In this document: piece after piece, positions 1-25,717 of the stretch | Layout of the letters: each line of letters starts with the position of its first letter | How positions within the stretch are numbered: the first letter of the stretch is position 1 | NCBI RefSeq assembly: GCF_021155765.1 | Contig: NC_060114.1 | Span: 10,445,001 to 10,509,000 of the forward strand | DNA: 64,000 nt | Direction: 5' to 3' | Origin: Diprion similis | Lineage: Eukaryota; Arthropoda; Insecta; Hymenoptera; Diprionidae | Program-made: the position numbers and the translations under genes | The notes under the pieces: generated by a model | Database searches by the model: none | What the model saw: the letters and a program-made list of their open reading frames with translations, nothing else | Told to the model about the DNA's origin: nothing

Positions 1-3000
1 CGATGGTTCCTCTTTCCAGCAACGTGACATTATGTCGTATCTTGAAAAGAAAACGAATTAGAAAGAACATAAAAAATTTAACAGAATTGAGAAACAAACA
101 TCCGGCGGAACGAAATAATCGCTGGACACTCACAAACTCTGAGGCGCGTATTTCGGTCGCTCCATACGATAACCGTCGGCCAGAGTTTGGCACATGTCAT
201 GCGGTCGTATGCCGTAATAGGGAGTATTGCCAAGTGAGAAAAGTTCCCACAAAACGATTCCGTACGACCAAACATCCGATTTCGTTGAAAACACCCGATC
301 TCTGAGTGACTCGATCGCCATCCACTTCACCGGAAGGGGACCCCCTTCGTTGTTCGTCAAGTTCTCTTCGTCACGGAGGGACTTCGACAGCCCGAAGTCG
401 CAGATTTTCACAACGTTATTGTCCGAGAGGAGAATGTTTCTCGCCGCCAAGTCTCCGTGCAATACCTGATACAAAATTCGTGAGTGACTCACATCGTGGG
501 GAGAAGTTGCACGAATCGTGACTCTTGATGCACATTGTGACAAATCCAAATTCTAGACTCTCACCGACCTTTTTCGCACTGAGATACTGCATGCCGCGTG
601 AAACTTGCCAAGCCCAACACACCAAGTCTTGCGTACGTATCGGATCTGTATGTATCCCTGCGTAATCGCCCGGGTATTTCGATCGCAGCTTTGGTTCGTC
701 CGATTTCGGTTCAGTGCTCACGCTGTCCACTGTCACGCCTGGAAAGCTGAGATCGCTGTCGTCACTGGAAGCTTCTATTTGCTGTCTGAAATTTGATAGT
801 AATGGTCAATCGTGCACAGTAATATTTGGGAGTTGGAGAGTGCCGCTTCGTGTTCCTCCTCCGTCCCCAGCCACTTCCCAACTGCCGAATATTACTTTTC
901 TAGATTCTTTGACCTCCGGATTTTCATTACACTGTGGCCCTTATCCTTCACTGTTGGGAAGGGGGAAAAATAATACAACGATTGGAATCTACGACCTCAT
1001 CATTTACTATCGCTTTGTACGAACACACACTGATGTTGTGTTATACGAGTAACTCAACCAGTTGGGTCCGACGACCACAGTAGAAGTGAGGAAATCCTCA
1101 CGGAATAAAATATTCCGTTGGACTAGTAGATTGTTGGGTCAACGTAGGAACCGCAAGAATTTCAGCTGAAATAGCAAAGGTATTGCATACGAAGCAAAAT
1201 TGGCTTCCAAACGTGGCAAACTTGTTAGTTCAACTCGCATGATTCTAAGTGTCGAAACAAATTTTTTAGCTGTTTCTACATCATACTCAAATTGGCGGCT
1301 CGAGTGAATTATTTTTTTCCATGCCGCATTCTGATGAATATTCTTCTCTCTTTTCTTCCATCAGGCAAAGCAACTTACCCCTCATCGTTGGCTTCGATCT
1401 CAACTTCATCCCGGTTTTGATCACGGATCTCTCCGGTATCCGCATCCAATTGATTCACAAAATGACGTCGGTGACGCAACAAGTAGTCGTGTAGATTCCC
1501 GAATCGGCAGAATTCTACGATGACGAACAGTTGGCCTGTCCGCACATTCATGGAAACATGGTTTACATCATTACTGTCACATTAGCTCAGCAGTAGAATC
1601 TGAGGATATTTTCTGTATCACTTCAGACGACCCACCGTACTCTAGATTTTTCGTGCAAGCACCGAGAAGACAGACGAGGTTCAAATGTTCTTCGAGGTAG
1701 CAGAGGATCCTGAGTTCGCGAAGAAGGGACATCATGCAGTCCAGACTGGCTGTGGCTCGGACCGTCTTGACAGCGACTGTCGTCTCTACTTCCCGACTGC
1801 GGATGGTTTGCGCCTGTCCTTTTCTCACCACTCCGAATGCCCCACTTCCCAGTATGTCGCCTGAAGAATAAACTCAACGCACAATCACTCGCCGCTGGAT
1901 GTCAGAGTATCAAAGGGCAAACACGTGTCGATTTCAATATTTTATACTATCTTCAGTTACGATATACTTGAGGGACGTTCGGTTTGGCAAATTCAATCGA
2001 ACGTCGTACAGTTTCCGATCACCTCAAACCCTATGATCTGCAAATGGTTTTTCATCATTTCTAGTTGGTAATTCGGACTTCATGGAACACTTTCAAGTGT
2101 CGACACCTAAAACTCCGATGTTTTCATGCAGAACAATAATTTGAATGTATAGGGGAAAAGCATAAATACCGAGTGTGAGCAGACTTCGAGGAAACTCGTA
2201 TTTCTTCACGTACGGCAGTAACTCAGCCTGATCGCTCACAGACACATCTGGATTCAAAGTCACTGAATTTCCGTTATTGAAGTACTCGAGTCTCGCTTTT
2301 ATCAATTTCCGTCTCAATCTCTGGAAATAAGGATTTCACACGTCAGTTGATGACACCGTTGACGTTGAGGTCAGGGTTTCTTTTTTCCGGTACCTGTTTG
2401 CGAAGTGTCCAAGCAGCCAATATGCTCATGACGATGATGAGTATCAGTGCCGAAGCAATCAGCCATATTCCAACCACGATCATATACTCGTTTTGAGGAT
2501 TTTGGGATAACCTCGGACCACCTACGGTTATTTGAGATTTGCATCAATTATTCATCAATTTCTTGCAGCAACGTCAGAGCGGAAGAAAGGCGAATGACGA
2601 CGTCCAACAAATAGGCGATATGTTTTTGTGGGTAAAATTATTCCGTGTTTCTGAGTGGCGAACTATTTCACAAACTTCGAAATTCTCGTTTGACTAACGG
2701 AAGACAAGGATAAGTATTCAAAACTTCCTGCTTTCTTGTTTTCAAAGAAAAAAGAAAGTTATTCGAGTTACCCCGAAAATTGATAGTTGAGTTCTCGCTC
2801 ATGGATCGCGACGTTTCAAGATCAAGAAAATCACCTTCAATCATTTTCAAATTGACATCTGTGTACATGCACGCACGTGAGTGCTCAATATTTTTGTCCG
2901 ACGATATTTCGAAAACTAGTCACCTGATTTTAATGATTCAGGTCTCAATCGATGCTGCTTTGCGAAACTTAGAACTAATGGTATTTTGGCTTCGGTCGGT

Positions 3001-6000
3001 TTAGTACTTTTCGATTTATTCAAAGAAGATATTATCAGAATCTGCATTCGAATTTCTGGAGTTTGAAAATGGCGTATTCAATATGCCGAACTGAAAGAAT
3101 GAATTTGGGATTCTCAAGAAAATTGGTACCATACGGTTTTCTGGGTCGCTAATCACGAGTCTGACGTTGAGTCTTCGAAGCTTTAATGAGACCATGAAAC
3201 TAATATTATTATTATTTCCACTATTATTGTTATAATTATTATTGTTGTTGTTATTGTTATTAATCACGCTCATAACAAGGTGAAAGACCCAATCTTACAG
3301 GCTGGGTCACGGTTAGTCCAAACACGCTTGCGTACAGTTCAGTTTCAAGTTTCATTCAAGCATCGCGGATTACTGCCTTAAGATATGTCAGCACTGTGAA
3401 CTTAAAATGGTATCCTAGGAATATTCAAAGCGGGCATTCAAGGTCGAACTTTATGGATCACAGGTGTCACTCAGCGTTCTAATTTTTCTGCACGCATCAA
3501 GAATGTGGAATGATATGTGAATGACGAAATGTATCTGCAAGAGATTCGGATACTCGTACCTAGTGTGTAAGCTTCGATGGGAATACTCGAATTACCACAA
3601 TTCTTCCTGTACTTCCCACAGGCTTCCACGTGAAACTGATACCCGACGCTCTGCTGCAAATTCAAAAATGTGTAAGAGTCCGTGGTTCCATTCAAAAATA
3701 CCGATTCATTCGTGTAGTGTGGAGCAGACAATACTGGATGGTAGTAATGAACGGCTGGACCCTCGTACGAATCTTCGGGCGCAGTCCACCTGATAGTTAT
3801 CGAATGGTTCGTCGATCCATTTGTAGAGACGGTCGGGATGAATGTTGGATTTATTTCACCTTGAGGAATAATCGAACGGAATATCAGTTTTGTCTCAAAT
3901 GGGCGCGAAGTCATTTGGGGGATTCGTATAAAATGGAAAGGTAGATCTGGTCTGAGTGATTGCTGTCAGGGCCGGCTGTAGAATGTCTTCAGAAGTAAAT
4001 TCATTAAACGAAGTGTCGAACTAAGAACCAGAGAGTAATTTTTAGTTGGAGGGTCTACTGGTGGGGTAAATGGTCATAAGAGAGGAGAAATGAGGCCGTA
4101 AACGACAAGCCTGTAGATATTCGGAACAGTGGGACTGATACTGAGAGAAACAAGAGGCTGGCTGAAACGATTGAAAGTTGACTTAGACGGTGTGATGAGC
4201 TTCTGCCACGTGATAGATGGCTGAAGTGGAATTGTAATAACAACATTGAATGGGAGATTACGAATACAAGTGGTTAGATGATAAGCATCTCAGATGGATA
4301 GGATAAGTAGCCTAACCGGTAGGCAGGGAGCTTCTCGTTGAAGTAACCGAACGTGGAGCAATAAATGGGTCATAAGGAGATTACGAAAATGTTAATTGGG
4401 GGCTACAAAGATTCGTCGTTATCTCAACATTCTCGATAATGTGCAAAAGGGATATGGATGCATGGGATGGGTCGGGCGAGTAGAGAGGTTTGTCTAAAGG
4501 AGAATCGTTCTGACTTTTTTAAGGTTGTTCTTACAGTACACCGTAAGTCATAATAAAATCCGGATTTTTGTTGGACTAGAATAAAATATTTGAACATTTA
4601 AATTAATAACTTCAATCAAAATGTTTCCTGAGATCACCTCTAATCGGATTGATTGAATCATTCATTGACTGACGATAATAAATGATTGTCTTCAGACTCA
4701 AGTATTTTTCCTAATGAAATAATCTGGCAACAGCGCATGTAATAGCTGTATGTTTTGTTGCCAGTGTTCGAATGGTTGAATTTCAGAATCGGCACGATTT
4801 TCATTCAATGTAGCCGTACTTGACGCGTCAGATTCGTCATTTAAGTATGGCTGACTTATTTTTTCGGCGATTTTCGATCATTTGGATTAGAATATTTTCA
4901 AAGCTACGCGTCAGAATACAATTGTAATAATTTTTGCGTAGTCCATAATTCTTTATAGATACGAATTCTGTTATAAATATTGATTGATATACAATCATTC
5001 GTATTTTCATCTTCAGCAGTTTTCGTTGAATTATAATCGAAATGTGGGCCTCCACAAGATTCCCCATTGATTACACGTTAAATATCTGATTTCAAACAAT
5101 AATTACAAAAAAGTACGTGTCACATCTTTCTCAGAAAATTATTTTTTATGTGTTCATTAGCGAATGATAAAATATCAACAATTCAGCTTCTTATCTTTAC
5201 ATTGCTCTAACGTTCAAACAACTCTAGACAGAATCTCTATGAGCAGTTTATAGATATTTATTTCTAAAGACAACGGGACATTTCTGCACAATCCGGGTTC
5301 AAAGATTGCGCATGATTTCCACAATTTTCTATGAATAGGTTTGATGGAATTGTCTAAAGAAACATGACGTAAAAGTCTCAATTTCATCAATAGAAGCTGA
5401 TTGTAATGGTGTACATACCTTCCTCGTCTGGAATCTTGACTAATAAATTATTGCTCAGGTAATGATTTTGACAATGGTCAATTGAACAAGCTTCCACTCT
5501 GATAACGTATGTTCTCCCATAAAGTCCATGAAATACGTGACTTAGTGCTGATGTTTCTACTAGCAATTCTCCGACGACGTGCGCATGTGCAATTAAAGCT
5601 CTGTACTTGTTGATATAACCTTCCAGGTCCCGCGGAGGTGCAGTCCATTCAACCTCTACTGAAGTTGTAGTAACCTTGATAATTGTAATGACTGGAACGT
5701 ATTCGATATCTGCACAGAATATAAAGTCTGTCACGCAAGGTCTGACCGTTGGATATTATCTGTAATAAATAGGGTCTGTGAATGGCAATGGTTCAAAACT
5801 CTACGAATATCCCACAATCAGAGTGAATTGGATGTACCTCGTTCGAACGTCGTGGCCCATATGAATTGATCCACGTCGATGCTTCCTAAATCGCGTATAT
5901 TGGTATGTATTCGATAGGTAGTCCCCTGTCGTAATCCATGAATAACGTGATAACCAGGTAGCTCATCAGACGAAAACGATGTTGTCTTCTGCCATTGGCT

Positions 6001-8162
6001 CGTACCATTCACTGAATACTCAATCGAGCAGTAATATTTAGATGGGTTGATAAATGTATTATACCCTGCCATTAGTGCTATGAAATCGGATTGACCAAGC
6101 TGTATGTAAATGCGATCCGTTCCAACAGCTCGGAAATTATGGTCGCTTTCCCCTCTCCGAAAGGTGGATAATGCATGTAATTCACTCAGAATACGTCGTT
6201 TGTCATCACCTGCATCCGCACTACATTTGTAGATCGCTCTGTCGTGTTCGGATGTCACGTTTGCGATTTCAAGCGTCACCACGACATCTGTTTCGGTGAC
6301 GCGTGAAATATTCGAAATATTTGTCTCCTCATATTCGATGGACTCGTCGTCCCAAGATCTCCATAGCCACTTGAAATTCTTCATTGAACGCCCTTCTATT
6401 TCGCAGTAAAGTGTGGCCGGTTTGCCCTCTTCCACATGAATATCACGGAAATAGGAGTGCGTTGCACCTAAATATCAGACTCGTTTCACTTTGAGCACAT
6501 AGTATCTTAATGTTTTTTCACATAATTCTTTACTCTCGAATCATCAAACCCTTCGTGTGCTTTAGTAAGCAAATTGATTTCGTGAAACTAAGTGATTTCT
6601 ATTCCGTCCCTTCAATCTTATTCATCGTTAAACGGGTATGGTTGAATGAAGTCAACGTGCCTTTTGTCAGGAACATTTGATCATTGAAAAAAACAAATTG
6701 AGTTCCTCGGACTAGACCAACCTACGTTCGGTAGGTACCGCTGGTTTCGTTGATTCGAGTGAGGGAACATAATTCGAATAATTGCAAATACCTTTTTCGA
6801 TTTGAATTCACATGTGGGTAGAAACAACAACAAAATTGTTCCCATACAAATAGTTTAATGAATCCATCCACGATCACGAACAGACCAATAAGTTTAGCCA
6901 CTTTGAACATTTTGGTGCTCAAGAAAAACCCACAAAAGTGTGGTCACGTGCAAAGCAGGTGGGTAAATATACAGGTGATGCAATCCATATTTTCACTCTG
7001 TTGGATCATTTATATGAACGAAATATTTATGCCGAATAAATATTTCATTGATTCCGATCATTTTATCCGATAACTGATCAACTTCACGGGTTTCGAATTA
7101 TTGAAATACTCATGAAATCTTTACATTTTTCTACAAAATCTCTTTATGCCATTTGGCAATATCTTCGTATCACGGAGACAAATATATCTCATCGTCTAAG
7201 TAAGTGGGAGTTCATCTGAAGTCTGGCGTAGGGGCTGCAGATGTGCGACTAGGTAGGATGATAGGTCTTTTTGAGAGCGATCCCCGGCTCGATCGGAAAC
7301 TAATCGGAAGCTAAACATGCGTTTTATCCTACTCGCGAAAATCTATAAGCTAATTGCGTTGCTAAGAAATATACCAACTGTCGTGATTAGGATAAAAATT
7401 TCACTTTTGTTTTTCATCAGAACCATTTCAAATGATTACAGAACTTCCTTTTCTCCCATGATTCGGTCTCGTCAACCGAAGTTTATTATAAGTTTCATAA
7501 AATATCGCCTCAATTTTGAACCTGAACATTCGATCATCCCAACTATATAAAACTGCTGTTGAATAATTAATTGTTTCAATTAATGATTTAAAAACTAAAT
7601 CGAATGTTCAGTTGTTAGTACCAGCTGTGAATTTTTCGACTTAATATTCATTTCTGTCAACTGAGATTTTTCTAAACCAACAGAACATGATCTTGCACTG
7701 ATCGAACATTTGCTGGATCGAAAAGTGGGACATTCGGTTGAAAAAAAGATTCACTATTAACTACATGATACAGGTTGTTCAACTTAATATTTCGTTCACT
7801 GTACAACCTCGTATCAGTGTTAAACAATAATTTATTCAATAGAAGTATTTGTCATTCAGTTCGTGTAGCTTAGAAAATGTTGTATTAATCAAATATCGGT
7901 TTTGCCACCCGTGAACGCCGCATTAAGTTGATCCAATCGATTTTTCTCTGACTTATCGACTTTCAAGCTCGAAAGTCGATTCTTAAATTTTTTCCTCCTT
8001 AGCACCAATAAAGTAAATTCACCCGTTCCACATTCGAGCTACTAAAACCACACTTGATTGCAATTGAATCTTGTCATGTTTCTACTCACCTTCTGTAGTA
8101 ACCAAGCAAGCGAAAAATAATGCAAGTCGCATCGAGATCAGGGCCAAATCGCCGCGTTCCAT
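1..8162 (-). CDS. Receptor tyrosine kinase, Ig + 3 FN3 ectodomain, split kinase (3' end beyond window)
   Basis: Single-pass receptor tyrosine kinase, expected at the plasma membrane to phosphorylate tyrosines after ligand binding; the ligand is unknown. Minus-strand exons: 8162-8090, 6467-5838, 5709-5419, 3859-3560, 2521-2394, 2320-2170, 1860-1636, 1535-1379, 785-569, 465-134 and 40-1. All junctions are GT-AG with matching phases, and the sum is 848 codons. Domains: signal peptide 1-23 (MRLALFFACLVTT core), Ig about 30-115 (paired Cys, WLW, DRAIYKC), FN3 about 125-232, 235-330 and 332-430, transmembrane about 445-468, kinase from about 525. Visible kinase motifs are GSGAFG, VAVK, HGDLAARN, DFG, WMAIES and DVWSYG. 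A kinase insert of about 75 residues lies between the lobes. Ectodomain introns are all phase 1, as expected for modular domains. The final exon reads LYDIMSRCWKEEPS, the normal C-lobe, and stops at the window edge. The HGD loop and split kinase suggest the insect PVR/Torso/Tie-like group. The single Ig plus FN3 modules argue against PVR (seven Ig). Exact orthology is unresolved. Confidence 0.9.
3201..3264. repeat. (ATT)n-type microsatellite in a receptor kinase intron
   Basis: Imperfect ATT/GTT trinucleotide repeat of about 64 bp in the intron between the third FN3 exon and the transmembrane exon. It makes a spurious Asn-rich reading frame on the minus strand. No function is suggested. Confidence 0.9.
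7955..7980. other. Perfect 10-bp stem-loop in receptor kinase intron 1
   Basis: ATCGACTTTC and GAAAGTCGAT form a perfect 10-bp stem with a 6-nt loop (AAGCTC), about 110 bp downstream of the first splice donor in the transcribed direction. It may be chance; it is recorded because the stem has no mismatch. Confidence 0.6.
8090..8162 (-). other. First coding exon and signal peptide of the receptor kinase
   Basis: The ATG at 8162 opens 24 codons ending at a G|GTGAGT donor (phase 1). The peptide begins MERGDLALISMRLALFFACL, a short polar stretch followed by a hydrophobic core, which is a good secretion signal. The phase-1 end joins the acceptor at 6468 to give GATHSYFRDIHVEEGK and then the Ig domain, which is why this start was chosen. 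The internal Met at codon 11 could also serve as start and would leave a tighter signal peptide. Any upstream untranslated exon is not identified. Confidence 0.8.
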
Positions 8163-19595: not shown

Positions 19596-19715
19596 GCATG
19601 CGATTTGTATTCAAGATGGCGGCGATGATGCATGTGATTTGTATTTAAGATGGCGCTGATGACGCATGATATTTGTATTCAAGATGGCGCTGATGACGCA
19701 TGAGATTTGTGTCCA
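19596..19715 (+). repeat. 34-bp tandem array (3.5 units) with AAGATGGCG motifs
   Basis: Units start at 19596, 19630, 19664 and 19698 (the last is partial), each beginning GCATG and containing ATTTGTATT followed by AAGATGGCG. AAGATGGCGGC is the known extended binding motif of YY1, whose fly homologue is Pho; the first unit has the full match and the next two have AAGATGGCGCT. Each ATGGCG can also serve as a translation start, so the last unit could supply the ATG of the exon that follows. Confidence 0.85.
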
Positions 19716-19925: not shown

Positions 19926-20187
19926 GTGAGAGAAAATAATTTGTCAAAAATTTCTAGCGAAGTTTTTTTTACGTCGACGATGCTGAAGGAGATCGCAACG
20001 ATATCCGTACTATCGATGGGAAATGAATTTGTACAAATTCAAATCAGACAAGCTAAAATTTGTACAACAATTCAGTAATAATACAAGGTTTCTTGATTAA
20101 AACGTTTGAAATGCTTGAACCCTCGTGTCTTCGGTCCGATCCTAACATATCTCAGAAGTTATGCGAAATCATAAACTATGCGAGGTG

Positions 20188-20193
20188 TTTATT
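20188..20193 (-). promoter_or_regulatory. Polyadenylation signal AATAAA for the sphingomyelinase-like gene
   Basis: AATAAA on the minus strand about 46 bp after the TAA stop at 20239, the usual position for 3' end processing. Confidence 0.6.
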
Positions 20194-20238
20194 TTTTATA
20201 ACTTTAAACCCTTGAAAATTTTACTCTTACTGAATAAA

Positions 20239-23200
20239 TTACAACCGCAGAGACACCACGACGATACCTGCGATTATTATTACCATATAATTAACAGATG
20301 GTGGAGTTGGGGAGGCCGAGATGGGGTTGAAACGGCGAAAGAGGCGATCTCGCAGAGGTTTCGGGAGGGGTTGGACCGACAGTCTAGTGCGAATTTGGTC
20401 GGCCGCGAATTTCCCGGAAACACACTCGGAGAAACGCCCGAATTCAAGGCTCGTTATGACGCACAACGAAATCAATTTGCAGCGATAATCGCAGGTTGCT
20501 TTGTGATTCACACGGCCTTCGGCGTTGCTGTGATATCTAATAACAGACATTTTAATGATACAATTTGAAAAATACAGTCAGCCTAATTTTTAACGCGTGA
20601 ATAATCGGTCAAAGGGCTTTTCAACTCACCGATCAAAAACGACGTTGTTGTCGCTTTGAAAATTTTTAACAAGCTTTTCAAAGCTGGACGTCGTTGCGTC
20701 TGGAAGTCGGTAAAAGTCACGAAACGAATAGCTCACTTCCCAGTATTTTTCAGGACTCGTCATGTCCGCGTCCTGGTTTGCCTTCGTCAAGTTAAAGTAG
20801 TACTGCACGTAGTCGATGAGCTGGAAACACAGAGAAATCGAAATTGGTTCCGGGATTTGGGCATTAAATGAAATTTTGATCAGACGATTTTTCTTAAAAT
20901 ACTTCCAGTCGGCAAAAAATCGGGAATTTTTTTTACAAATTTTAGAACGAAATAGTTATACGTTGATTTTTTATCAAATTATTATATTTGTAAATTACAA
21001 TGTCTTTTTAAAAATTAGAGAATAGATTGGATATTGATACTTCGGTTTAAAGCTCTTGAATAAGCCAAAAATCTAATAGATTCATTTGATTTCACTTTAC
21101 GTTGGGTCATTTTATTCACAAGACTATGTTCTACAAATTCAATGAATTTTTTTTTTGTTTTTGTTTTTTAATATCGCGGAATCGTTAAGTATTTAACTTT
21201 ACAAAATTACGCATGACAAATTGTTAATGATGAACAAATGGCAATACCGAATTACCTAGTGAAAAAAAGAAAATCTGTTTCATCTGTAACACGTAGTAGA
21301 AAATAATTTCCAGAATAAAATTAATTGCAAAGTGAAATCTAACGAATTTACTGATTTTTAAAGATTTTATGTTAGAAGTTGTAGATAATTTCTGTCTTTT
21401 TTAGTTTTGTACTATTAAAAAGGTTTTCATAGCCGAGTATAACAATTTGGTGAAAACTCAACGTACGATTATATCTCGCAATGAAATTGATGGAAAGTAT
21501 CGATTTTTCGTCAAACCAGCCACCTTAGAAAGCTTTTTTAAAATTCAGCCCGAAATTTATGCTAGGCTCTGTCTAACTGCGGGAAGTCGACAATGCGAAG
21601 AAATAAAAACTTGAACATTTTTCTTAATTTTGCTTAAACCTTCCAACGCGATTCGTAATTTAATTTTCGTTGAGAATTAGGAGATACTGAATTTTTAGGG
21701 TGCACCGTAAACTTTCTTGTTTAACCGCAGGATTTCTTTCATTGTTATTTAGTTTTTATCCCGGTAATACAGAGCGTCATACAGTCATAAATAACATCAA
21801 TTCTCGTTATTTTTTTTTTTTTTTACCCATCTCGAAAAACAGAACAATTTTTCTTAATTTTCAACATTAGGTTTTTCTGTTACGAAAAAAGTGTTAACAC
21901 CATACGAATGAGAGACAAAAATTATTAGAGAATATTATTTCACTGTAATGAATGGTGAGATTCTTTTCTTTTTCCAAACAATTAGGTCTGGTTATTCTCT
22001 GAACTAGGGTTTTACACACCTAAGTCACTTTGTGAACAAGATTTTTTCAGCAAACATGCTGCAAGCATTGTGTCTAATCATATTTAATAATTAGAGTTTT
22101 GGTTTTATTTTTCGAACGTGGGCTTCTTTCGAGAAGAAATAATTACTCAATCTGTTGTTTAAATTCATTCCTTTGGCAAAAATCGTCATACATTTAACAA
22201 CGAAGCAGAGCAGACGATAAGAGTTCTCGAAATAATTTCCGAATATATTCTATATGAGATTTGAGAATTGATCTACAAAATGAATGAAAAATACTAATTG
22301 AGACTTTAATGAATCCCAATAACCCAAAGTTGCGTAATTTAGTGAGAAAAAAATAAAAAACGAAAAATTCGCTGTACCATCAATATTCTGCTTACTTTGC
22401 CGCTGTGCTTGTCGTACATATAGATTCTAATCTTCGGATAGTTGCCGAAACGAGGGCTCATCGGCGGAGCAAGAAGCACTGCGGAAACAGCTTTTCCTGT
22501 ACAGAGAATAAGAAAAAGGATGTTTCATTACATTCGCGTAACCCTTTTTTTCTCTCCTTGTGTTGCGAGTGAAACAGAAATGAGTGAGAAAAAAAGGAAA
22601 AATTTTATTCGAAATTAATTCGAAGTTGTACCTATACGAATTAATTTCGAGAAAATTCAATCCATCAAAATTTTCCTTATTCTGTGTAAAATTTGCACGA
22701 CTTTTTTCACTCTTGACTGGAACTTTGTAATTTCTACACAATTGTGACGTGAATTTACAAGTTTATCTCAAATCGCGAAAGTTTTGTGCAATATTTGATG
22801 TACCTTTTCTGTCGTACACCAGACGAAATGTGTCCTCGTGTCTGTGTCCGGCAAATTGTGCAGCAACAACGTCGCGAAACTTACTGATTATTCTTAAATA
22901 GCGTCGATTGTGGCCGTTGCTCCATACCAGCAGGTTTTCTTTTCCTTTGTCAAGGTTTTCTTCGCTGTAGCTTTTTCGATCAAAGCCCGGTGGTACCGAC
23001 ATAACGATGAATGCCTTGTGTTACGGTGGAGAAGAATAAAGTTGCGAAATCGTTCAAAAGGTGTAAAAATATAGAGAGCTTTGAGCGGCTGATTTTAAGA
23101 AACGTGTTGTTTCAAGCAATCTCAGTGAGTTTTAACAACGGAACACCGTTGCCGAGAATTTGAAATTTCGGGACTTTGACGGAACGATGTGAAATTTATT

Positions 23201-25717
23201 CGAACCCTCGAGAATTCACGTTGACGTTGATATTTTTTACTTGTGAGCTTAAAAAGTTGTGAAAAAAAAAAATTAGAAAATGTTTGATTGACGAGCTGAT
23301 TTTTTTTCTTTGGAATTGGTATTGTTTTTTTGATTCAATTTTTCACATAACTTGTACTTGGCAATGTATAAATCATGAGCGGGAAGTGAGATCTTAAAAA
23401 TTTCGAATAATATTCGTCTAAAAAATAGTTGAGCTTCAGAGAGGGGAGAAAAAAAGATGTAAATATTTTTTACGATCTAAAACTTCTGTTGTTTTTCATG
23501 ATCCAGAAAAAATAAGCCAACATCGTGAAGAGTTAAGCGAGATGATGACGCATTTTCTGATCGAGCTATGGATACAACAGAAACCTGATACGATATATTC
23601 TATATTTATTTTTGGGGTCACGACCTTTATTGCTGACCTTTTGACCGGCGATTCGACATGCTCTGAGCTCCTCGATGAGCCATCTCCATTGTCTGGCTGG
23701 ATCAGGTCGACGACTTGCGATATGATTCCTTACGTAAAAATTTGTATTCATCACGATAACCCGGATCCGATTCTCCGGTGGTTGAACGCGCGAAAAGTAC
23801 CCAATTTCCGGTCCGGGTTGACCAAGAATCTGTTTCACCTTGGGATTATGGTCCAAACTCTTTTGACAATAGTTCTTTGAGATATAGAGCAATTGACTTT
23901 ATTCTAGATTCATAAAAGTAACTGCTTTGAAGTTTTGATCCAGTAAAAACGTGTGACAGAATGAAAAATAATATTATCGAGATATTATTTTTGTTAGTTT
24001 GTATAAAATTGCATTCGATTTAACTAGCATCTGATAAATTTCTGTAATGAAATTGTCAAAAGGACGAAAGAAGGAAAATTTGGTTAGATTAGGCTTGATT
24101 TAAATTCGATAAAACTTACTGAAGAATCTCGTTCGTCGCGTAACAGATTTTTCACTCTCTCGTAGTGGGTCGTTAACTTTAGGGGGTGATGACCGTGAGG
24201 TTGATAATCGTACCAGCCGTAGCTTGGATAGATGGTTACGAAACCAGCGTTCCTAATGTCCGTGACGAAAGCGCTGATTGTTTCATAAATATCGTCCTGT
24301 CGATCACCGATATTCGGACAGCGTAGATTCCTATTATCAGTAACTTCCTGATTATACAATAAGGGTGAAGAAACTGAATTCGATCCAAACGCAAGGATAA
24401 CAAAGATAAGTTTTATTATTATCATTTCCGTTACTTTTTCTGAAATTGTTAGTTTAAAACAGGAAAAAAGGCGTTTTAACCATTCTTTGACGAAGCATAA
24501 AAAAAGGCCAAAAAGGTATATCTTGAAAATCGAATTGGATTTTTTATTTTATTCCTACCCTGAAATATAATTCAGTATATTGTTAGAAATAGTCGAAAAA
24601 GTGAAGTAGAAATTACAATAAAAATGATAATAATTGTAACAAGATAAGATCAAGTTTTTCTTGTGATAGGAAAGATTTCTCGCTATCATTTACTATCTGT
24701 TTTCGACGAATTTGAATTTTCTATTTGCCCTTGTATATTGAAATAAGTATGACAAATATTGTTGATATGTTAGAGAAGTAAATGAGCTTTGACAGGCGAT
24801 TAATGAAATTGAGAAAAAAATTATATGTGTTAATTATATTGTAAATTATATTGTATTTAGATACAAAATCAGAGAAACAATCTTCAAATTGTATTTGGAT
24901 ACTTTTTTCTGAAATTTTTATGGTAAAAATAGTATTTTTCATTACAGCATTTATATACGGTGGATAGGATAGTGATTTTTATAGCGTTCGTACCGATAGC
25001 GATTCGACAATAAAAAATATGTACAGGAGTTAAAATGATCGTAAAGAAGAATCCGTACAGACATATAAAAGCGCGACGCATCGTGAAATTATTCCATATT
25101 ATATAGGTAGACTTATTCACTCACCCTGTAAAAATGCAGAAGTCTGGCGCCGTGCTTTTCCATCGCGTAGTTGCGTTCATCGCCCTCGCTATAGTCTCCA
25201 TCAATCCAAAGGCCGAGCATTGACCAAATTCACCAAAAAAACCGCAATTCCTCGTAAAGTTTTCGGAATTTTTTATGTGACAGTCTTTCAGGTACGGGAA
25301 AAAGAGGAAAATTCATTAGAATAAATTAATTTTACCATCAATTTCCGTTTTTGGGAAGTAAATTTAGCCACTCCAAGATTTGGAATTCTTTGAAAACTCA
25401 CCGTCTTCGGGAGCTCCCAAGGGTGAATAATAAGGGTCAAAGAACATGTCAGTCACGTGCCAAAAGTAACCTAAGCAAACACCGTTTTACTTTGTAACAC
25501 AAAGATCGTAAACACGCGATGAATTGATTCTAGTCTACTCGATTCGAATCTGGAATTGATCTGGGATCTCACCCATTTTCCGACCCGTGAAGTTTTTACC
25601 ACTCTCGGTTCGTCCATGATTAAAAACATTTTTTTCTGCCAATCCATGGACGCAATTACTCAGAAACAGAAGCAGCTGTAAGACGCGGAAGACGTCAACC
25701 TTCTTTCGTCCGAACAT
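20239..25717 (-). CDS. Acid sphingomyelinase-like protein, probably inactive pseudoenzyme
   Basis: Nine minus-strand exons (25717-25573, 25470-25402, 25284-25125, 24330-24120, 23874-23638, 23014-22804, 22496-22396, 20820-20630, 20536-20239) join in matching phases to 540 codons plus TAA. A signal peptide (LQLLLFLSNCVHG) is followed by a metallophosphoesterase core of the acid sphingomyelinase/SMPDL3 family without a saposin domain. Family landmarks: FWHVTD (52-56), DFCIFTG, IRVIVMNTNFYV, QWRWLIEELRA, VPPG, AAQFAGHRHED, YYFNLTKAN and a Cys-rich C-terminal domain. Active family members cleave phosphodiester lipids or nucleotides using two zinc ions. Compared with human acid sphingomyelinase, D206 is kept (D56) and H457/H459 are kept (H331/H333), but H208 is F58, D278 is N126, N318-H319 are W164-Y165 and H425 is S280. 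Catalysis is therefore unlikely. A hydrophobic segment near the C-terminus may anchor it. The starts of exons 4 and 5 are the least certain junctions. Confidence 0.87.
25573..25717 (-). other. First coding exon and signal peptide of the sphingomyelinase-like protein
   Basis: The ATG at 25717 begins MFGRKKVDVFRVLQLLLFLS, a basic n-region and Leu-rich core ending near CVHGLA, followed by a polar linker and a G|GTGAGA donor at 25572 (phase 1). The next exon supplies the FWHVTD motif directly, so no saposin B domain lies between. This supports an SMPDL3-like layout over a true acid sphingomyelinase. Confidence 0.75.

Follow-up and report, generated by a model that had tools for sequence, protein, structure and literature searches.

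An intact SMPDL3-type gene of a sawfly with a dismantled catalytic centre, probably an old and maintained pseudoenzyme

What does a gene encode when its reading frame is intact and most of the catalytic residues of its family are gone? This question is raised by a locus on the minus strand of a 64,000-nucleotide stretch of the genome of the pine sawfly Diprion similis, family Diprionidae (contig NC_060114.1, C10:10445001-10509000; hereafter the window). Its deposited product is named 'acid sphingomyelinase-like phosphodiesterase 3b', which implies an enzyme, whereas the catalytic centre has been lost. Sequence comparison places the protein in the SMPDL3 branch of the acid sphingomyelinase (ASMase) family, where it is most probably an old pseudoenzyme maintained by selection. 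We prefer this to a pseudogene because the frame is intact, because the same replacement letters occur in a second sawfly superfamily, and because conservation is strongest in the dead motifs.

Splice reconstruction joins nine exons into 540 codons and a stop, across eight introns that are all of the GT-AG type and whose phases agree between exons. The deposited D. similis protein (P0001) is 100% identical to the reconstructed one over 97% of the length, which confirms an earlier note on this DNA in its claim of nine joined exons and 540 residues with no stop or frameshift. That core model stands, with a small correction at its C-terminus: the only difference lies in the last 14 residues, which in P0001 result from cutting exon 9 at 20284 and joining it to a small exon at 20097-20141, rather than from reading through. 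Fifteen residues at the start of exon 5, NYCQKSLDHNPKVKQ, also lack a counterpart in the Neodiprion and Cephus proteins described below, and an in-frame acceptor, with exon 5 beginning at 23829, would drop them.

The catalytic residues were read against mouse SMPDL3B, human SMPDL3A and an 11-row alignment; the seven metal ligands are those letters of the five motifs that we take, from general knowledge of the family, to bind metal. In the Diprion protein DLH has become DMF, TGD is TGN, GNHD is GWYD and GHxPPG is MSVPPG, while GHxH is retained. Exon 2 (25402-25470) carries the former motif 1, with D56 kept (codon 25448-25450) and F58 (25442-25444) in place of the histidine. The former motifs 2 and 3 lie in exon 4 (24120-24330), where the aspartate is N126 (D126N, 24327-24329), the proton-donor histidine is R128, and the asparagine and histidine of GNHD are W164 (24213-24215) and Y165 (24210-24212). 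Exon 6 (22804-23014), with the former motifs 4 and 5, has S280 (22997-22999) for the histidine of GHxPPG and keeps H331 (22844-22846) and H333 (22838-22840). Four of the seven ligands are replaced (by F58, N126, W164 and S280), as are both catalytic histidines (H128R and H165Y), making six of nine positions in all; the earlier note's list of replacements, with D56, H331 and H333 as the only ligands left, is borne out by the SMPDL3A and SMPDL3B alignments. An active SMPDL3/ASM phosphodiesterase is expected to have all seven ligands, the proton-donor histidine and the equivalent of His317. The Diprion protein has three of the seven and its Cephus orthologue two, and both have R128 and Y165, although the alignment of R128 is a little less certain because a two-residue gap adjoins it. 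The mouse ASMase structure paper describes seven conserved metal-binding residues, with His280 and His317 near the phosphate, and reports that the H280A mutant is inactive and that H317A lowers activity only slightly (PMC4961792).

The fold of the family is still recognizable. The protein combines a calcineurin-like core with an ASMase C-terminal subdomain, the latter beginning in exon 7 (22396-22496) and continuing in exon 8 (20630-20820; PF19272, E 2.1e-18). As in SMPDL3-type proteins there is no saposin domain: ASMase_C is the only Pfam hit up to an expectation value (E) of 10, a search in which the PF00149 profile gave no match, and fewer than 50 residues, signal-like stretch included, precede the fold. 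The predicted structure is that of an SMPDL3 protein, with 26-29% identity in structural alignments, matches that do not exclude other families; in the tree the protein groups with SMPDL3 and not with the SMPD1 types. The closest known systems are SMPDL3A and SMPDL3B (PDB 5ebe, 5kar, 9k2e), from which the Diprion protein differs in the four ligands and the two catalytic histidines. Searches of open PMC papers turned up no account of an SMPDL3/ASM lineage with a dead site. Metal-free or inactive members are known elsewhere in the calcineurin-like phosphoesterase superfamily, for example VPS29, the DNA polymerase B-subunits and Plasmodium GAP50. To our knowledge these belong to other branches and none is acid sphingomyelinase-like.

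If the replacements are maintained, they should recur in orthologues, and the earlier note proposed looking for them there. Protein database searches returned seven distinct proteins in total, three of which form one clade with support 100/100: P0001, P0002 from Neodiprion lecontei (a cluster of five sequences) and P0003 from the stem sawfly Cephus cinctus, which belongs to another sawfly superfamily. P0003 is 44-46% identical to the Diprion protein and has the identical letter at all six replaced catalytic positions; P0002, whose model is truncated, has W, Y and S at the three of these positions that are present in it. The Diprion and Cephus lineages probably separated well over 200 million years ago. 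Nearest to the clade in the tree is a group of two insect SMPDL3 enzymes, P0006 of Drosophila and P0007 of Cephus, with support 94/96 and 93/96; the trees were midpoint-rooted for drawing, and the first 32 residues of P0002 were removed from them and from the 11-row alignment. The distance between the Diprion and Cephus proteins, about 1.4-1.5 changes per column, is slightly larger than that between the Drosophila and Cephus enzymes (about 1.3) despite the closer kinship, so that the protein evolves faster than the enzyme, yet under constraint.

That constraint falls mainly on the dead motifs. Between residues 47 and 484 of P0001, five windows around the former metal motifs take in 53 sites. 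With gaps counted as differences, the Diprion and Cephus letters coincide at 45 of them, against 166 of the 385 others; with gap sites dropped the counts are 45/52 and 166/362, which omits the 24 of 438 sites where Cephus has a gap, and the only such site within a motif is the lost ligand H333. When equal blocks were placed at random, none of 20,000 placements scored as high in either count (best 43 and 42). Part of the motif agreement consists of glycines, prolines and other residues common to the enzymes. However, at sites where P0001 differs from every SMPDL3 enzyme row, Cephus still agrees at 14 of 19 motif sites against 52 of 172 elsewhere, so the new letters have been held and not only the old ones; this control uses four enzyme rows, or three in motif 1, which P0007 lacks, and is confined to sites that have a Cephus residue and at least three enzyme rows. 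Diprion and Cephus also have extra cysteines in common, namely C85, C129 and C268, the last being present in Neodiprion as well; C129 adjoins R128 in the former motif 2, and C85 lies upstream of it. Both the frame and the dead-site residues have been kept across a deep split, as is expected of a conserved pseudoenzyme. Together with P0002 and P0003, this concentration of conservation in the motifs lends support to the earlier suggestion that selective erasure of catalytic residues in a frame that stays open points to a conserved non-enzymatic role, for which lipid binding and scaffolding were named as candidates.

Several points weigh against a maintained pseudoenzyme. Cephus has lost one further ligand, H333, together with the glycine of GHxH; the position of H333 is R in the 11-row alignment and a gap in the others. 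The stem branch of the clade is long, at 1.84-1.88 changes per column. The motif windows were picked by the analyst from known enzyme motifs, and the Fisher test on the novel letters (p 0.0005 for 14/19 against 52/172) takes sites as independent. The structure model of the Diprion protein is of moderate confidence only, with a predicted local distance difference test (pLDDT) score of 57 and a predicted template modelling (pTM) score of 0.65, and pLDDT falls below 50 around C85 and just after C129; the model of P0003 is similar (pLDDT 56.6, pTM 0.62). Beyond Diprionidae the protein database searches found a single orthologue, although one of the protein searches missed even Cephus, so that absence from other Hymenoptera shows little. 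Finally, the P0002 model uses a different frame of exon 3 for its start and is missing motifs 1 and 2, and the N-terminus might be broken there. This is tempered by the character of the inferred N. lecontei changes, which are milder in the conserved frame (I to V, silent, and S to T/I) than in the model's own frame (Y to C, N to Y, and K to N). The N-terminus of P0002 is probably a mis-annotation.

Exon 3 (25125-25284, minus strand) is itself partly open in two frames in D. similis; the second was rejected as the coding frame, since the frame that matches Cephus and the enzymes is the conserved one.

A search of the species' own genome, the 269-Mb assembly, returned 11 matches, of which nine belong to this gene. 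The other two, on C8 at about 5.6957 Mb and on C10 at about 5.6255 Mb, encode SMPD1-like proteins that group with P0005. As far as the tblastn pieces by which these loci are known can tell, both keep seven of seven ligands (DPH/DTH, TGD, GNHE, AHVPPG/GHIPPG and GHSH/GHTH), so D. similis retains this enzyme family. At locus L011 (C10, about 5.634-5.640 Mb), three AVPMGCDQRIKSYSQ-like peptide copies show weak similarity to the protein encoded in the window (E 0.003, 0.003 and 0.026); they look like a local repeat and not relatives. Both types of protein occur in Cephus, the dead-site P0003 and the enzyme-like P0007. P0006 and P0007 are similar in length to the Diprion protein but retain TGD, GHxPPG and GHxHxD, with DxH in P0006 and that part missing from P0007; both also match PF00149 (P0007 weakly, at 24.1 bits, and absent from the precomputed list), whereas the Diprion protein does not. 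Where mammalian SMPDL3 has GNHD, P0006 and P0007 carry GHED, with His in place of the asparagine ligand and Glu in place of the histidine after it. Both proteins are otherwise intact in those motifs that they have (P0007 being without motif 1), and GHED can be regarded as an insect-type variant of the active site.

How do other explanations fare against this evidence? A pseudogene, whether unitary or duplicated, that had only begun to decay and whose frame survived by chance would fit the many lost catalytic residues, the truncated N. lecontei model with its different starting frame and the long stem branch. We consider it very unlikely, and rejected it since both the frame and the identical dead residues are preserved in the Cephus orthologue; the 44-46% identity with a protein from another superfamily, the dead motifs as the most conserved part of the protein, and the retention of the enzyme-invariant cysteines and of eight GT-AG introns also speak against it. 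It is harder still to believe in an artefact of the gene model, in which alternative exons would restore the catalytic residues. The alternative C-terminal exon of the deposited model does make alternative splicing plausible here, but the substitutions are internal to exons 2, 4 and 6, with both flanks aligned to enzymes, and the deposited D. similis and Cephus proteins show identical letters. Nor was a second copy of the gene found in the window, where tblastn of the joined protein returned its own exons and otherwise matches with E of at least 1.4.

The protein might instead still be a hydrolase with a rebuilt centre, for instance one that binds a single metal through D56, H331 and H333 or that works without metal by way of R128. 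The three ligands are indeed retained in Diprion, and R128 aligns where, according to the ASMase structure paper, calcineurin has an arginine in place of the proton donor His280 of ASMase (PMC4961792). This is improbable: Cephus lacks H333, so the three ligands have not been kept across the lineage, and in both species the aspartate of TGD is Asn, the asparagine of GNH is W and the histidine of GHxPPG is S. A dead paralogue could also pair with an active SMPDL3/ASM enzyme and tune it, with no ligand in its own pocket. Such a subunit is in keeping with solved structures of SMPDL3A and SMPDL3B whose titles call them dimers (8w6p, 9k2e) and with the SMPD1-like loci with all ligands in the same genome, and the concentration of conservation in the pocket motifs argues against it; on balance it seems rather unlikely. 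Although the conservation pattern suggests a function at the pocket rather than in the rest of the fold, the present data do not separate ligand binding, enzyme regulation and pure scaffolding.

For the maintained pseudoenzyme, the following course can be proposed. The gene would have arisen by duplication from an insect SMPDL3 enzyme, and its product would lack enzymatic activity. A hydrophobic N-terminus, four N-glycosylation sequons in P0001 and conserved cysteines suggest that it enters the secretory pathway and is secreted. It could perhaps be tethered by a hydrophobic C-terminal tail resembling a glycosylphosphatidylinositol (GPI) signal. Such a tail is seen in N. lecontei, in Cephus and in the D. 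similis protein when exon 9 is read through, whereas the deposited D. similis form ends hydrophilic. SMPDL3B is GPI-anchored, a type of attachment in which the hydrophobic C-terminal signal follows a site of small residues. The function would be metal-free, with F58, W164 and Y165 remodelling the pocket in place of His, Asn and His, and C85 and C129 perhaps clamping it; a C85-C129 disulfide is a guess, and the model is poorly predicted in that region. Phospholipids, nucleotides and partner proteins are candidates for what the pocket might then bind. Tentatively, an SMPDL3 lineage of early-branching Hymenoptera may have turned its two-metal centre into a metal-free, aromatic, possibly disulfide-clamped putative binding pocket, near-unchanged in two superfamilies, and the protein may act at the cell surface as a sensor of, or a sink for, a phosphodiester ligand that the ancestral enzymes used to hydrolyse, be it a lipid, a nucleotide or a cyclic dinucleotide.

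Dead-site and enzyme-like relatives within one species, as with P0003 and P0007 of Cephus, offer a natural experiment on the non-catalytic roles of the SMPDL3 fold. This bears on mammalian SMPDL3B, some of whose roles may not need hydrolysis. The locus also provides an example of a dead pocket under more constraint than the remainder of its protein.

The other exons contribute the following. Exon 1 (25573-25717) has the start codon and the signal-peptide-like hydrophobic stretch, ends at the donor GTGAGA, and encodes an N-terminus identical to that of P0001. Exon 3 holds C73 and C94, which are invariant in the enzyme rows, the extra C85 and the strand running into TG(D/N). NTNFYV, QWRWL and C268 lie in exon 5 (23638-23874). 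Exon 9 (20239-20536) contains the C-terminal cysteines C457, C461, C467 and C480 and, read through, the GPI-signal-like tail MVIIIAGIVVVSLRL, which has a counterpart in P0002 and resembles the tails of the N. lecontei and Cephus proteins. The small tenth exon of the deposited model instead gives the hydrophilic end DRTEDTRVQAFQTF, and the optional splice (20097-20536, minus strand) might yield alternative C-termini, one hydrophobic (membrane tail) and one hydrophilic (secreted). Just downstream of the 3' end of the gene, at 19596-19710, lies a 34-base unit repeated in tandem (3.4 copies, 88% matches). Further along, at 130-6474 on the minus strand, are pieces of a receptor tyrosine kinase gene, whose open frames encode a tyrosine kinase domain, two fibronectin III domains and immunoglobulin domains.

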